Source: Candidatus Hadarchaeum sp. (lineage in GTDB: Archaea; Hadarchaeota; Hadarchaeia; Hadarchaeales; Hadarchaeaceae). Taken from it: a stretch of DNA of 35,334 nt. A program made the position numbers and the translations under genes. The notes beneath the pieces are model-generated. The model searched no databases, had not been told where the DNA came from, and saw only the letters and a program-made list of their open reading frames with translations. The first letter of the stretch is position 1. Each line of letters starts with the position of its first letter. The stretch lies in contig DYFS01000007.1 in the NCBI GenBank assembly GCA_020725055.1, positions 1 through 35,334 on the forward strand, read 5' to 3'. Of the stretch, positions 12,866-33,434 are shown in pieces.

Positions 12866-14320
12866 ATGAGTTGGACGAGCAAAATCAGGCAAATTGACGA
12901 CGTACGATGGGAGATCCCGCAGGACTTCAGGCGCGGTATGCGCGTGCCAGCTAGGATTTACGCAGACGCAGAGATGCTCAACGAGATGCAGAAGGACCTG
13001 ACGCTGGGGCAGGCCGTGAATGTGACTTTCCTGCAGGGAATCTACAAGTATTCGATAACGCTTCCAGATGGGCATCAGGGATATGGCTTTCCTATAGGCG
13101 GGGTCGCCGCTACCGACGCTGAAACCGGCGTCATCAGCCCGGGGGGTGTTGGGTACGATATCAATTGCGGCGTCCGGCTACTGCAGACAAATATGGAAAA
13201 AAAAGACATCGAGCCAAAGCTGCGCGAGATAGTCGAAGCGTTGTTCAGGAACGTGCCCTCTGGCTTGGGCAGCACGGGCCACATTAAACTAACACCAGCC
13301 CAGCTCGACGAAGTGCTCGAGCACGGCGCGGGGTGGGCTGTCGAGAACGGCTTTGGCTGGCGCGAAGATCTAGAGCGGCTTGAGGAGAAAGGTTGCATGG
13401 CGGGCGCAGATGCAAAGCGCGTGAGCGCGGAGGCAAAGCATCGCGGCTTTCCACAGCTCGGAAGTTTGGGCAGCGGCAACCATTTCTTAGAGGTACAAAA
13501 AGTTGACAAAATCTACGATCGAGAGGTCGCTAAAAAATTCGGCATCGATCACGAGGGGCAGGTCACTGTCATGATCCACACCGGCTCCCGGGGGTTGGGG
13601 CACCAAGTCTGCTCCGATTACCTGCGGACGATGGAGAGGGTCGTCCGCCAGTACAAGATAGAGCTGCCGGATCGGGAGCTTGTCAACGTGCCGGTGACAT
13701 CACCCGAAGGCCAAGCTTACTTCGCGGCCATGGCGTGCGCTGCCAACTACGCTTGGGCCAACCGCCAGATGATAGTGCACTGGGTCAGGCAGAGCTTCGA
13801 GCAGGTATTCGGGAAGGACGCCGAGGGCTTGGGTTTGCACATAGTTTACGATGTGGCGCACAACATCGCGAAGCTCGAGGAGCACCACGTGGACGGCGAG
13901 AAAAAGATGGTTTACGTGCACCGGAAGGGGGCGACGCGGGCGTTCGGCCCTGGGCACCCCGACATCCCTTCCATTTACCGCGAGGTGGGGCAGCCAGTCC
14001 TTATCCCAGGGGACATGGGCACCGCCTCCTACGTGCTCGTTGGCACCGAGCAGGCTATGGGGGAGACTTTCGCCTCAACCGCCCATGGCGCCGGGCGCCA
14101 CATGAGTCGGACAGCAGCCCTTAAGCGATTCTGGGGTGAGAACGTGAGGAGGGAGCTGGAATCGAAAGGCATCGTCGTGCGGGCGGCCAAGGTTTCCGTG
14201 ATTGCGGAGGAAGCACCAGGGAGCTACAAGGACGTGGACCGTGTCTGCGAGGTATCCCACAGGGCAGGAATCGCCCGGAAGGTGGCGAGGCTCGTACCAA
14301 TGGGCGTCGCGAAGGGGTAG
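12866..14320 (+). CDS. rtcB: tRNA-splicing ligase RtcB
   Basis: RtcB joins RNA 2',3'-cyclic phosphate and 5'-OH ends using GTP, sealing tRNA halves after intron removal. The 484-residue length is standard and there is no intein, although RtcB is an intein host in some archaea. Active-site pieces are visible: DINCGVRL with metal-binding Cys101, [18 protein letters not shown], and [12 protein letters not shown] with His407, the counterpart of the guanylylated histidine in Pyrococcus RtcB. ATG at 12866 follows AAGGTGG. The SPOUT methyltransferase gene starts 12 bases after its stop. Archease, its partner, is upstream beyond the two-gene insertion. Confidence 0.96.
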
Positions 14321-30368: not shown

Positions 30369-30614
30369 GTGGTTACGGAAGTTGGGCGGGTTTGCGTGAA
30401 GCTGGCCGGGCACGAGGCTGGCAAGCGATGCGTCATCGTCGAGGTGATCGATCGCACCAACGTTTTGATCGCAGGCCCGGGGGTCAAGCGGAGGCGCTGC
30501 AACATCGCACACCTCGAGCCGCTGCCGCAGAAATTGGGGATCACAGAAGGCGCCACGGACGAAGAGATCAAGCGCGCACTCGAAGCGGTTGGTGCTGGTG
30601 GGGCAGTTGGGTAG
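30369..30614 (+). CDS. rpl14e: Ribosomal protein eL14
   Basis: An 81-residue large-subunit protein with a KOW-type beta barrel: VGRVCVKLAGHEAGKRCVIVEVID followed by VLIAGPGVKRRRCNIAHLEPL. GTG at 30369 starts two bases after the CMP kinase stop. The last 20 or so residues (Gly/Ala-rich) overlap the ribosome binding site and start of cbf5. Confidence 0.94.
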   Translation: MVTEVGRVCVKLAGHEAGKRCVIVEVIDRTNVLIAGPGVKRRRCNIAHLEPLPQKLGITEGATDEEIKRALEAVGAGGAVG

Positions 30615-33219
30615 GCTTCCATCGGATGTCGTGCGCGAGGTGCTCGTGCGAACCCATGATGTAACCGACCCCCGCTACGGCTGTAGACCGGGCGAGAGGC
30701 CGATGCGCGAGCACATCAGGCTGGGCGTGATAAACCTCGACAAGCCAATCGGACCGACGTCGCACGAGATAGTCGCGTGGGTTAAGCGCGTGCTCGAGGT
30801 CCGCCGCGCCGGGCACAGCGGGACACTCGACCCAAAGGTCAGCGGGGTGCTCCCGGTCGCCCTCGGGGATGCGACAAAACTCACCCAGGCGCTGCTACCG
30901 GCCGGCAAAGAGTACACGTGCGTGATGCACCTGCACGGCGAGGTCCCCAGGCACAAACTCGAGCAGGCGTTGCGGGAGTTCGAGGGTGAGGTGTACCAGC
31001 GACCCCCGGTGCGGGCCGCGGTGAAGCGGGCCCTGCGGAAGAGGCGGATTTACTACATCGAGCTTCTCGAATGCGAGGGACGTGACGTGCTCATGCGCAT
31101 CGGCTGCGAGGCTGGCACCTATGCGCGGAAGCTCTGTTTATCACCCCATACCGAGCTTTTCCTAACAAATGGGGGACTCGTGAGAATCAAAGATTTGGTT
31201 GAAAGTCCAGGTTTTACCAAAGATGGTAGGCATAAAGCATGCAGAACACCGACGCTTGCAGATTCCTTCCAAATAGGAGATAACGATATTGTGGCTTTTC
31301 AAAAACTGTCCGCGCCAAAAGAGATGGTTAAGATAACCACAAGCTCAGGGATAAGTCTGGAGGTAACCCCAGAACATGACATCTTAATTGATGCGGATGT
31401 CGGGAGTAAATGGTGCCCCGCGGGAAAACTTAAAAAAATAGATTTTATCTACTCTCCTCGCGTCATAGATCTTCATGAGGAAACACCTTACTTGATAGAC
31501 CTTTTGGATGAAGGTGTACTTGTTAACGACAAATCGATTAAGAACGCTTGCAAAGAGATTCTCCGGGGAAAATTTGGAAACATACGCAGGGCTGCGAAGA
31601 GATTAAACTTGAATCGAAGGGCGTTTTTTCCAGATAGTGAGCTGGGAATCAGTGTCAAAAATATCCAAAAGATCTGTGAAAACTGGGATGAACTAAAAAA
31701 ATGGATCGGTGAGCTTAAAGGGGAATCCGGTCAGATCGTGCGCTTGCCTCGGCGCACAGTAAACGAAGATTTAGCATATCTGCTCGGGCTACTCGCTTCG
31801 GATGGTTGCATCGTATTTGACATCAAAAGACATGTCCGGCCTCACAGGATTATATTTCACAATACAAGCGCGAAATTGAAAGATGAGTTCGTCAAACTCC
31901 ATAAAAAACTGTTCCCCGAGGTGCCGATTCACGTTAGGAGAGTTAGAAAAGATTTGTTCGAGGTAAAAACCGATAATTTTGTTCTAGCCGGGGTGGCCTT
32001 TTCTCTCGGTATCCGAAGCCCAAATGAAGAGTCAGAACTCGCACCACTACTCACACTTCCCAAATCCGCGATAGCAGCGTTTTTGAGGGGATATTTTGAT
32101 GGGGATGGTTTAGCCTTTTGCAAAAAGAAAACTCGAACAAAAGCATATGATACATTTATCCTGTTTACAACGGCAAACTACAAGACATCTAAACGGCTCT
32201 ATCAGCTCCTCAAAAGGATCGGCATTCGCAGCAAGATACTGCCAAGAAAAACACTCGGTGGTTTCCACCAATCTAATTCAAGGGCTTATGACGTGGTGGT
32301 AAATACTCCTGGCGACAAACTCAGGTTCATGGAAGAGATTGGGAGTTTCCATCCGCATAAACGAAAAGTTTTTGAGAGAATCAAAAAAGTGCTAAAACGA
32401 CACAGAGCCGTAGACGATTTTGATTACGTGAGCCAAAAATGTGTGCGCCTTATCAAGACCATCATGGGAAAACATAATGTTTCTAGAAATCAGTTGCGGT
32501 GCGGTGGGAGCATTTACGAAATTCTAAATGAAGAACGAAAGCCCATCCGCTATATTGTTAGAAAGATTTTGCATCGTTTTGATGAAATTGGTATTAGCGA
32601 CATGAATCTTGACGAGTTAAAAAAACTGTGTGAAGGCCAGTATTACCTAGAGAAAATCAAGTCCATTAGAAGAGTCAAAGCCAATGACCCCCACGTATTC
32701 GATTTAACAGTCGACTGCACCCACAATTTTATCCCCGAAGGAGCAATCGTTGTAAGCAATTGCTTCGACATCGGAGAGGTTCTGGGATGCGGCGCCCATA
32801 TGGCCGAGCTCAGGCGGACGCGGGCCGGACCGTTCCGCGAGGACGAAACGCTCACAAAACTGCACGATTTGGCGGACGCCTACGCGTTCTGGCGCGAGGA
32901 GGGAAGCGAGGAGTACCTCCGGAGGACGATTCTTCCTGTGGAGGCGGCAGTCGGGCACCTGCCGAAGCTGGTCGTCCGGGACGGGGCTGTCGATGCACTC
33001 TGCCACGGCGCGAGCCTAGCCGCCCCCGGGGTGCTGACGGTTGAAACCGGCATCTCGCAGGGTGACCTGGTAGCGCTGATGACGCTCAAGGGAGAGCTGA
33101 TATCCCTCGCGAGAGCCGAGATGGCATCGAAGCAGATTTGCGAAGCCGATCACGGCATAGTCGCGAAGCCCGAGCGCGTGGTGATGTCTCCAGGGGTTTA
33201 TCCAAAGAAGTGGAAGTGA
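30607..33219 (+). CDS. cbf5: tRNA/rRNA pseudouridine synthase Cbf5 precursor, interrupted by an intein
   Basis: Cbf5 (dyskerin homologue) is the catalytic subunit of H/ACA ribonucleoproteins and can also make tRNA pseudouridine 55. The precursor is 870 residues from TTG 30607. Removing the intein leaves 176 + 152 = 328 residues, the normal length. The N-extein has VINLDKPIGPTSHEIVAWVK and HSGTLDPKVSG with catalytic Asp75; the C-extein has GAHMAELRRTRAGPF, then a PUA domain (AAVGHLPKLVV, GDLVALMTLKGELISLA). The junction splits GTYARKL from CFDIGEVLG, a continuous stretch in intein-less Cbf5. In-frame TTG 30589 and GTG 30592/30598 are alternatives. It overlaps eL14 by 8 bases. Confidence 0.95.
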   Translation: MGRLPSDVVREVLVRTHDVTDPRYGCRPGERPMREHIRLGVINLDKPIGPTSHEIVAWVKRVLEVRRAGHSGTLDPKVSGVLPVALGDATKLTQALLPAGKEYTCVMHLHGEVPRHKLEQALREFEGEVYQRPPVRAAVKRALRKRRIYYIELLECEGRDVLMRIGCEAGTYARKLCLSPHTELFLTNGGLVRIKDLVESPGFTKDGRHKACRTPTLADSFQIGDNDIVAFQKLSAPKEMVKITTSSGISLEVTPEHDILIDADVGSKWCPAGKLKKIDFIYSPRVIDLHEETPYLIDLLDEGVLVNDKSIKNACKEILRGKFGNIRRAAKRLNLNRRAFFPDSELGISVKNIQKICENWDELKKWIGELKGESGQIVRLPRRTVNEDLAYLLGLLASDGCIVFDIKRHVRPHRIIFHNTSAKLKDEFVKLHKKLFPEVPIHVRRVRKDLFEVKTDNFVLAGVAFSLGIRSPNEESELAPLLTLPKSAIAAFLRGYFDGDGLAFCKKKTRTKAYDTFILFTTANYKTSKRLYQLLKRIGIRSKILPRKTLGGFHQSNSRAYDVVVNTPGDKLRFMEEIGSFHPHKRKVFERIKKVLKRHRAVDDFDYVSQKCVRLIKTIMGKHNVSRNQLRCGGSIYEILNEERKPIRYIVRKILHRFDEIGISDMNLDELKKLCEGQYYLEKIKSIRRVKANDPHVFDLTVDCTHNFIPEGAIVVSNCFDIGEVLGCGAHMAELRRTRAGPFREDETLTKLHDLADAYAFWREEGSEEYLRRTILPVEAAVGHLPKLVVRDGAVDALCHGASLAAPGVLTVETGISQGDLVALMTLKGELISLARAEMASKQICEADHGIVAKPERVVMSPGVYPKKWK
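31135..32760 (+). mobile_element. Intein with LAGLIDADG homing endonuclease, in cbf5
   Basis: Residues numbered from intein Cys1. Block A is CLSPHTELFLTNGGLV. Block B contains TPEH (Thr78-His81), the residues that assist N-S acyl shift. Two dodecapeptide endonuclease motifs are intact: LLGLLASDG with Asp223 and LRGYFDGDG with Asp324, so the endonuclease may be active. Block F is HVFDLTVDCTHNF with His530, and block G ends VVSN before extein Cys+1. The penultimate residue is Ser541 where His is usual. Length is 542 residues. GC is lower than in the host: by hand count 21 of 60 bases at 32101-32160 against 37 of 60 at 32881-32940. That composition points to horizontal acquisition. Confidence 0.95.
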
Positions 33220-33346: not shown

Positions 33347-33434
33347 GCCGGGGTAGCCAAGTCAGGTAAGGCGCATGCCTGGAGAGCATGTGGCCCTTCG
33401 GGCCTCCAGGGTTCAAATCCCTGCCCCGGCGCCA
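33347..33434 (+). tRNA. tRNA-Ser(GGA)
   Basis: An 88-base class II tRNA with acceptor GCCGGGG pairing with CCCCGGC (33424-33430), discriminator G at 33431 and encoded CCA at 33432-33434. The anticodon loop CTGGAGA lies between CATGC and GCATG stems, giving anticodon GGA. The long variable arm is GGCCC TTC GGGCC. It differs from tRNA-Ser(UGA) at 11163 at about seven positions, most of them compensated stem pairs or the anticodon. No intron is present. Confidence 0.95.

Follow-up and report, generated by a model that had tools for sequence, protein, structure and literature searches.

The archaeal pseudouridine synthase Cbf5 as host of a full-length intein whose homing endonuclease appears intact

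The cbf5 gene of the window analyzed here, a stretch of 35,334 nucleotides from Candidatus Hadarchaeum sp., is interrupted by an intein of full length, and the homing endonuclease inside this intein appears to be intact. Taking all lines of evidence together, this is very probably an ordinary mobile intein of class 1, equipped with a homing endonuclease with two LAGLIDADG motifs and inserted before the Cys of the Cbf5 active-site motif GTY-x-R-K-L-C. Comparison with other archaeal genomes suggests that the element is one allele of a single-site family with a patchy distribution across several archaeal phyla.

The cbf5 Gene and the Insertion Site

In the archaeal assembly, which comprises 1.09 Mb in 53 contigs and is about 90% complete, the window is contig C30. 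Upstream of cbf5 are genes for RNA polymerase subunits, ribosomal proteins, SecY and an EMC3/TMCO1-like protein, and a tRNA-Ser gene is located downstream (33347-33434). Both exteins and the intein are encoded in one frame (Table 1). Read from the alternative TTG at 30607 to the stop at 33219, this frame is continuous for 870 codons as originally predicted; we infer that translation starts either at this TTG or at the one at 30589. The extein matches the NCBIfam Cbf5 models NF003280 and TIGR00425 with about 435 bits, far above the cut-off, and contains all features of the host protein, namely DKCLD, the TruB_N, TruB_C_2 and PUA domains and the catalytic Asp. Joining the exteins results in a Cbf5 of 328 residues, which can be aligned over its full length to Pyrococcus Cbf5 and is gap-free at the junction. 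Inspection of the sequence revealed no RNA intron at the catalytic-Asp codon of this gene. This cbf5 is the only TruB-family gene detected in the roughly 90%-complete assembly and no second copy was found there, in agreement with a single-copy host gene. Therefore, the host would need the spliced Cbf5 product. RtcB is a known intein host, and the rtcB gene of the window (12866-14320, 484 residues) is without an intein.

The intein is positioned in-frame between GTYARKL and CFDIGEVLG, and these flanks are contiguous in intein-free relatives, just as had been claimed for ordinary Cbf5. In the relatives examined, the uninterrupted motif reads GTY[I/M/V/L]RKL-C-x-D-[I/V/M]-G, and its conserved Cys is the +1 nucleophile position of the intein. 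Near the junction, the residue between GTY and R is Ala in the window (GTY-A-R) but Ile, Met, Val or Leu in nearly all relatives, a deviation which may count against the intein reading. In structures of TruB and Cbf5 the GTYxR motif packs against the catalytic Asp. Because the intein directly adjoins this active-site motif, the unspliced chain is probably inactive. In two relatives of the same family (L018 and L019) a Met replaces the conserved Cys at the insertion point. By sequence, these sites would be unsuited to provide the +1 nucleophile for this intein and are possibly intein-resistant.

Table 1. Features of the cbf5 gene in the window and of same-site inteins in other genomes.
Feature	Location	Strand	Remarks
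cbf5 precursor ORF (N-extein, intein and C-extein in a single frame)	30589..33219	+	876 codons
Cbf5 N-extein: DKCLD and first part of TruB_N, ends with GTYARKL	30607..31134	+	Pfam; collinear with PDB Cbf5
Catalytic Asp codon of Cbf5 (GTLDP), kept	30829..30831	+	Sequence; role from PMC2738675
Full-length intein of 542 residues (Cys1 to Asn542) with class 1 layout and Ser541 as penultimate residue	31135..32760	+	
Splicing (Hint) domain, N-terminal part, blocks A and B (Cys1; T78-P-E-H81)	31135..31449	+	Pfam PF14890, TIGR01445; inner border approximate
Helical insert, residues 133-180, helix-turn-helix-like	31531..31674	+	Helices in AlphaFold2 model
LAGLIDADG motif 1, LLGLLASDG (block C), catalytic Asp223	31780..31806	+	
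LAGLIDADG motif 2, LRGYFDGDG (block E), catalytic Asp324	32083..32109	+	PF14528
Splicing domain, C-terminal part, blocks F and G (VFDLTV..THNF ... VVSN)	32641..32760	+	TIGR01443
Cbf5 C-extein: Cys+1 FDIGEVLG..., rest of catalytic domain, TruB_C_2, PUA	32761..33219	+	Pfam; collinear with PDB Cbf5
Same-site inteins, Bathyarchaeia	L079, L085		
Same-site inteins, Woesearchaeota/Nanoarchaeota	L080, L082, L083, L084, L088, L089		
Same-site intein, Aenigmarchaeota	L086		
Same-site intein, Thermoproteota AUK152	L087 1592-3085	-	
Same-site intein, truncated copy	L091 (JAFCCF010000019.1)		Contig binned as Aminicenantes bacterium
Putative RNA intron inside the catalytic Asp codon of cbf5	L079 1606-1627; L085 639-656; L086 2500-2514		Oriented nt

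Motifs, Domains and Predicted Structure

The inserted block comprises exactly 542 codons, from C1-LSPHTELF to VVSN-542, followed by Cys+1. The originally predicted full-length intein was thus confirmed by the frame, by Pfam and NCBIfam and by homologues at the same site. The Pfam models PF14890 (Intein_splicing) and PF14528 (LAGLIDADG_3) reached 57 bits (cut-off 35.8) and 58.6 bits (cut-off 22.5), and the NCBIfam models intein_Nterm and intein_Cterm were both above their cut-offs. As in other class 1 inteins, Cys1, the TxxH of block B, D523 and H530 of block F, Asn542 and Cys+1 are present, and the exception is the penultimate position of block G, where the usual, albeit not universal, His is replaced by Ser541. 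All of the predicted blocks A, B, C, E, F and G were found in this way, with block G as a variant that ends with Ser-Asn instead of His-Asn. The endonuclease part has two LAGLIDADG motifs and has kept both catalytic aspartates at the predicted positions, D223 in LASDG (220-224) and D324 in FDGDG (321-325).

AlphaFold2 modelled the intein with confidence (mean pLDDT 88.7, pTM 0.90), whereas a model of the unspliced precursor reached a pTM of 0.64 and was poor near the junctions. In the intein model the splicing domain adopts the Hint fold, and the best PDB match is the intein-endonuclease TliVMA (7qss, E 2e-20, TM 0.63/0.78), followed by 2cw7 and PI-PfuI (1dq3). TliVMA (7qss) and PhoVMA (7qst) share with the Cbf5 intein a Hint domain with an inserted two-motif LAGLIDADG endonuclease, but these VMA inteins reside in ATPase subunit A, show 17% identity, contain another inserted helical region and end with His-Asn and not with Ser-Asn. 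PI-PfuI (1dq3) and PI-PkoII (2cw7) have the same full-length archaeal class 1 intein-endonuclease layout and differ in their hosts, with 14-16% identity over the fold. Furthermore, the model contains extra helical segments at residues 133-180 and 435-499. The helix-turn-helix-like first segment is also present in TopoVI-B inteins of relatives, and its FGxIRxxxxxLxxxRxxF pattern is conserved across the Cbf5 inteins except the degenerate one. Based on the model, it seems feasible that the extra segments, notably 133-180, may help the intein to bind DNA.

Inteins at the Same Site in Other Archaea

Cbf5 was detected in 25 of the 27 phylum relatives searched, and none of the 25 carries the insert; all frames are uninterrupted with a length of 327-411 residues, compared to 916 for the open frame here. 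One Cbf5/TruB match (G047:C6:4367-4708) lies in a 528-residue frame, which is longer than usual and uninterrupted across TruB_N. Insertions at this site in other Cbf5 proteins, a search already proposed with the original prediction, were sought in 84,980 species genomes using a degenerate DNA pattern for C-x-[AS]-G-T-Y-x-R-x-[LMIF]-C-x-x-x-[QHNKDE]-[ST]. Thirteen records matched, and 11 of them are Cbf5 with an intein at the identical site, ten of these complete with 493-532 residues and one truncated (L091). As the junction pattern is strict, these counts are lower bounds. The element is not unique to this genome: at least ten further archaea carry an intein at this position. The truncated copy probably derives from an archaeal Cbf5 contig misbinned as Aminicenantes. 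In the class of G263, a true junction match was present in two of 330 genomes (G263 itself and G544). Two pattern matches in G565 read GTYKRTNC and were rejected, by motif not being Cbf5, and the pattern match on a viral contig (L092) was discarded as a viral carrier as it has no GTY.R frame. The intein scan of viral contigs gave no match, and neither phages nor plasmids matched the element.

Cys1, T78, H81, D523, H530, N531, F532, S541 and N542 are invariant in the 11 aligned inteins, and the Ser-Asn ending is common to all complete Cbf5 inteins. Judged from this alignment, the penultimate Ser is a family trait. A penultimate His is usual in inteins and assists the cyclisation of Asn. Inteins without this His can splice, some of them less readily, and restoring it improves some and worsens others (PMC4031507). 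Ser541 in place of His therefore counts against splicing, though the Ser does not vary within the family. Both LAGLIDADG motifs are kept in ten of the 11 aligned inteins. In the remaining one, L087, both are lost (LISLKLD, FDCCGF) and every splicing residue is kept, a pattern to be expected if selection acts on splicing and the endonuclease can be dispensed with. L087 would thus be a decaying endonuclease allele, as expected for a late stage of the homing cycle. For the two closest pairs, dN was well below dS (NG86) in the splicing as well as in the endonuclease part, with dS near saturation.

The nearest relatives outside Cbf5 in the genomes searched are the inteins L097 (G133), L098 (G049), L024 and L027, with full-length matches at E-values of 3e-98, 4e-81, 5e-54 and 2e-49, respectively. 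Their hosts are predicted to be a NuoB-like oxidoreductase subunit (L097), AtpB (L098) and TopoVI-B (L024 and L027). These inteins differ from the Cbf5 intein in host and site and are not alleles of the Cbf5 site; the hosts of L097 and L098 may be of interest for intein catalogues.

Composition, Age and Transfer

A recent arrival of the intein had been proposed from its AT-rich sequence. The block is indeed AT-rich, with a GC content of about 0.43 compared to about 0.65 on either side, and a third-position GC of 0.43 compared to 0.79 in the exteins and 0.758 ± 0.031 in 19 genes of the window. The conclusion on age is weak nonetheless. Two further inteins are encoded in the same genome on contig C28, L037 in AtpA and L048 in TFB. 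The AtpA intein is inserted in the P-loop of A-type ATP synthase subunit A, between Lys and Cys of GGFGTGKC, and the TFB intein starts with Ser1 and ends with Ser-Asn. Both are AT-rich as well (GC of 0.49 and 0.46 versus 0.69 and 0.73 in their exteins), three inteins in relatives are likewise AT-rich, and all complete Cbf5 inteins have a lower overall GC content than their own exteins. AT-richness is general among these inteins and is therefore no clear clock of arrival. In addition, the nearest known allele of the Cbf5 intein shares 42% protein identity, and the exteins of the same pair share 54%.

When intein and extein phylogenies were compared, as had also been proposed originally, the large, phylum-level groups did not conflict significantly (AU p 0.198). 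Within the intein tree L083 groups with L084, and a grouping of L082 with L084 is rejected (p 0.0009); the extein tree does not reject L083 with L084 (p 0.133). Horizontal homing is thus supported by the patchy distribution and not by the tree topology. The presence in one genome together with the absence from 25 relatives favours a gain in this lineage, with repeated loss as the less likely alternative.

Splicing, Homing and Alternative Explanations

The analysis shows where the element lies, its reading frame, its motifs, its predicted fold and its homologues at the same site, and from the conservation of the residues concerned we infer that it can splice, cleave and move. The precursor would be translated as a single chain of about 870 residues, in which Cys1 would start the N-S acyl shift, Cys+1 would take over the N-extein and Asn542 would cyclise, so that the exteins are joined to a Cbf5 of about 328 residues. 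Once released, the intein would serve as an endonuclease and cleave cbf5 genes that lack an intein, and repair would copy it into the cut gene.

It could be argued that foreign intein DNA was joined to cbf5 during assembly or binning, as the metagenome-style assembly consists of 53 contigs and the GC content changes abruptly. The probability of such an artefact is negligible, since the insert is codon-exact with an open frame within a typical row of ribosomal-protein genes, and homologous inserts interrupt cbf5 between the same two codons in independent assemblies. This recurrence in other genomes also sets chance aside. The penultimate Ser would be in line with a relic that no longer splices, in which the intein cleaves or stays inert while the host uses another pseudouridine synthase or tolerates the loss. 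We consider this highly improbable, because all splicing nucleophiles are kept in 11 of 11 alleles, including the one with a dead endonuclease, no second TruB-family gene was found, and the Asp and the motifs of the extein are intact.

A mobile class 1 intein that splices could in addition serve as a conditional switch, with splicing dependent on temperature, redox state or RNA binding and gating H/ACA-guided pseudouridylation. Such a switch would fit the location of the insertion site, which is the catalytic motif of a gene that is essential and present in a single copy. It would also fit the invariant Ser, since a slowed last step could have been conserved as a trait, and the retention of the splicing residues in L087 after loss of the endonuclease. 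However, each of these points would be just as likely for a selfish element that resides in an essential gene, and the distribution is sparse: 25 of 25 phylum relatives are without the intein, and in the class of G263 only two of the 330 genomes have a true match. In this reading the intein would be kept because it is useful and not only because it is selfish; we regard it as improbable. The same low probability applies to a maintained post-translational checkpoint, in which the conserved Ser would slow splicing and a cellular condition would set the level of active H/ACA pseudouridine synthase. A regulatory role, such as the originally proposed gating of ribosome and tRNA modification, is speculative though possible, and the evidence does not place it above the simple persistence of a selfish element in this essential gene.

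Novelty and Significance

In the open-access literature searched, we found no report of Cbf5 as an intein host. NCBIfam has models for intein-containing RtcB-related and Tes proteins, and none is shown for Cbf5. This is in line with the view that Cbf5 is unfamiliar as a host. Both host and insertion site appear to be new, whereas the kind of element is well known, and an earlier listing is possible. In archaea and bacteria, 62-67% of the catalogued inteins are found in genes of replication, recombination and repair (2018 review, PMC5874633). The Cbf5 site is the catalytic motif of a core RNA-modification enzyme, and its alleles occur in several phyla including DPANN, one of them being endonuclease-dead.

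In L079, L085 and L086, the cbf5 frame is also broken upstream of the intein, by 22, 18 and 15 nt, respectively (Table 1). These breaks lie where a pre-mRNA (BHB) intron is known in archaeal cbf5, at the catalytic-Asp codon, with published lengths of 16-44 bp (PMC2738675). Like the Cbf5 intein, it interrupts the gene at an active-site codon and has to be removed to obtain the enzyme; unlike the intein, it is short, lacks an endonuclease and is removed from the RNA. Therefore, these three cbf5 genes seem to require both the removal of an intron from the RNA at one active-site motif and the splicing of the protein at a second one. With the allele series it could be tested for what reason inteins insert at active sites, how well an intein with a Ser-Asn end splices and if splicing can govern an essential RNA-modifying enzyme.
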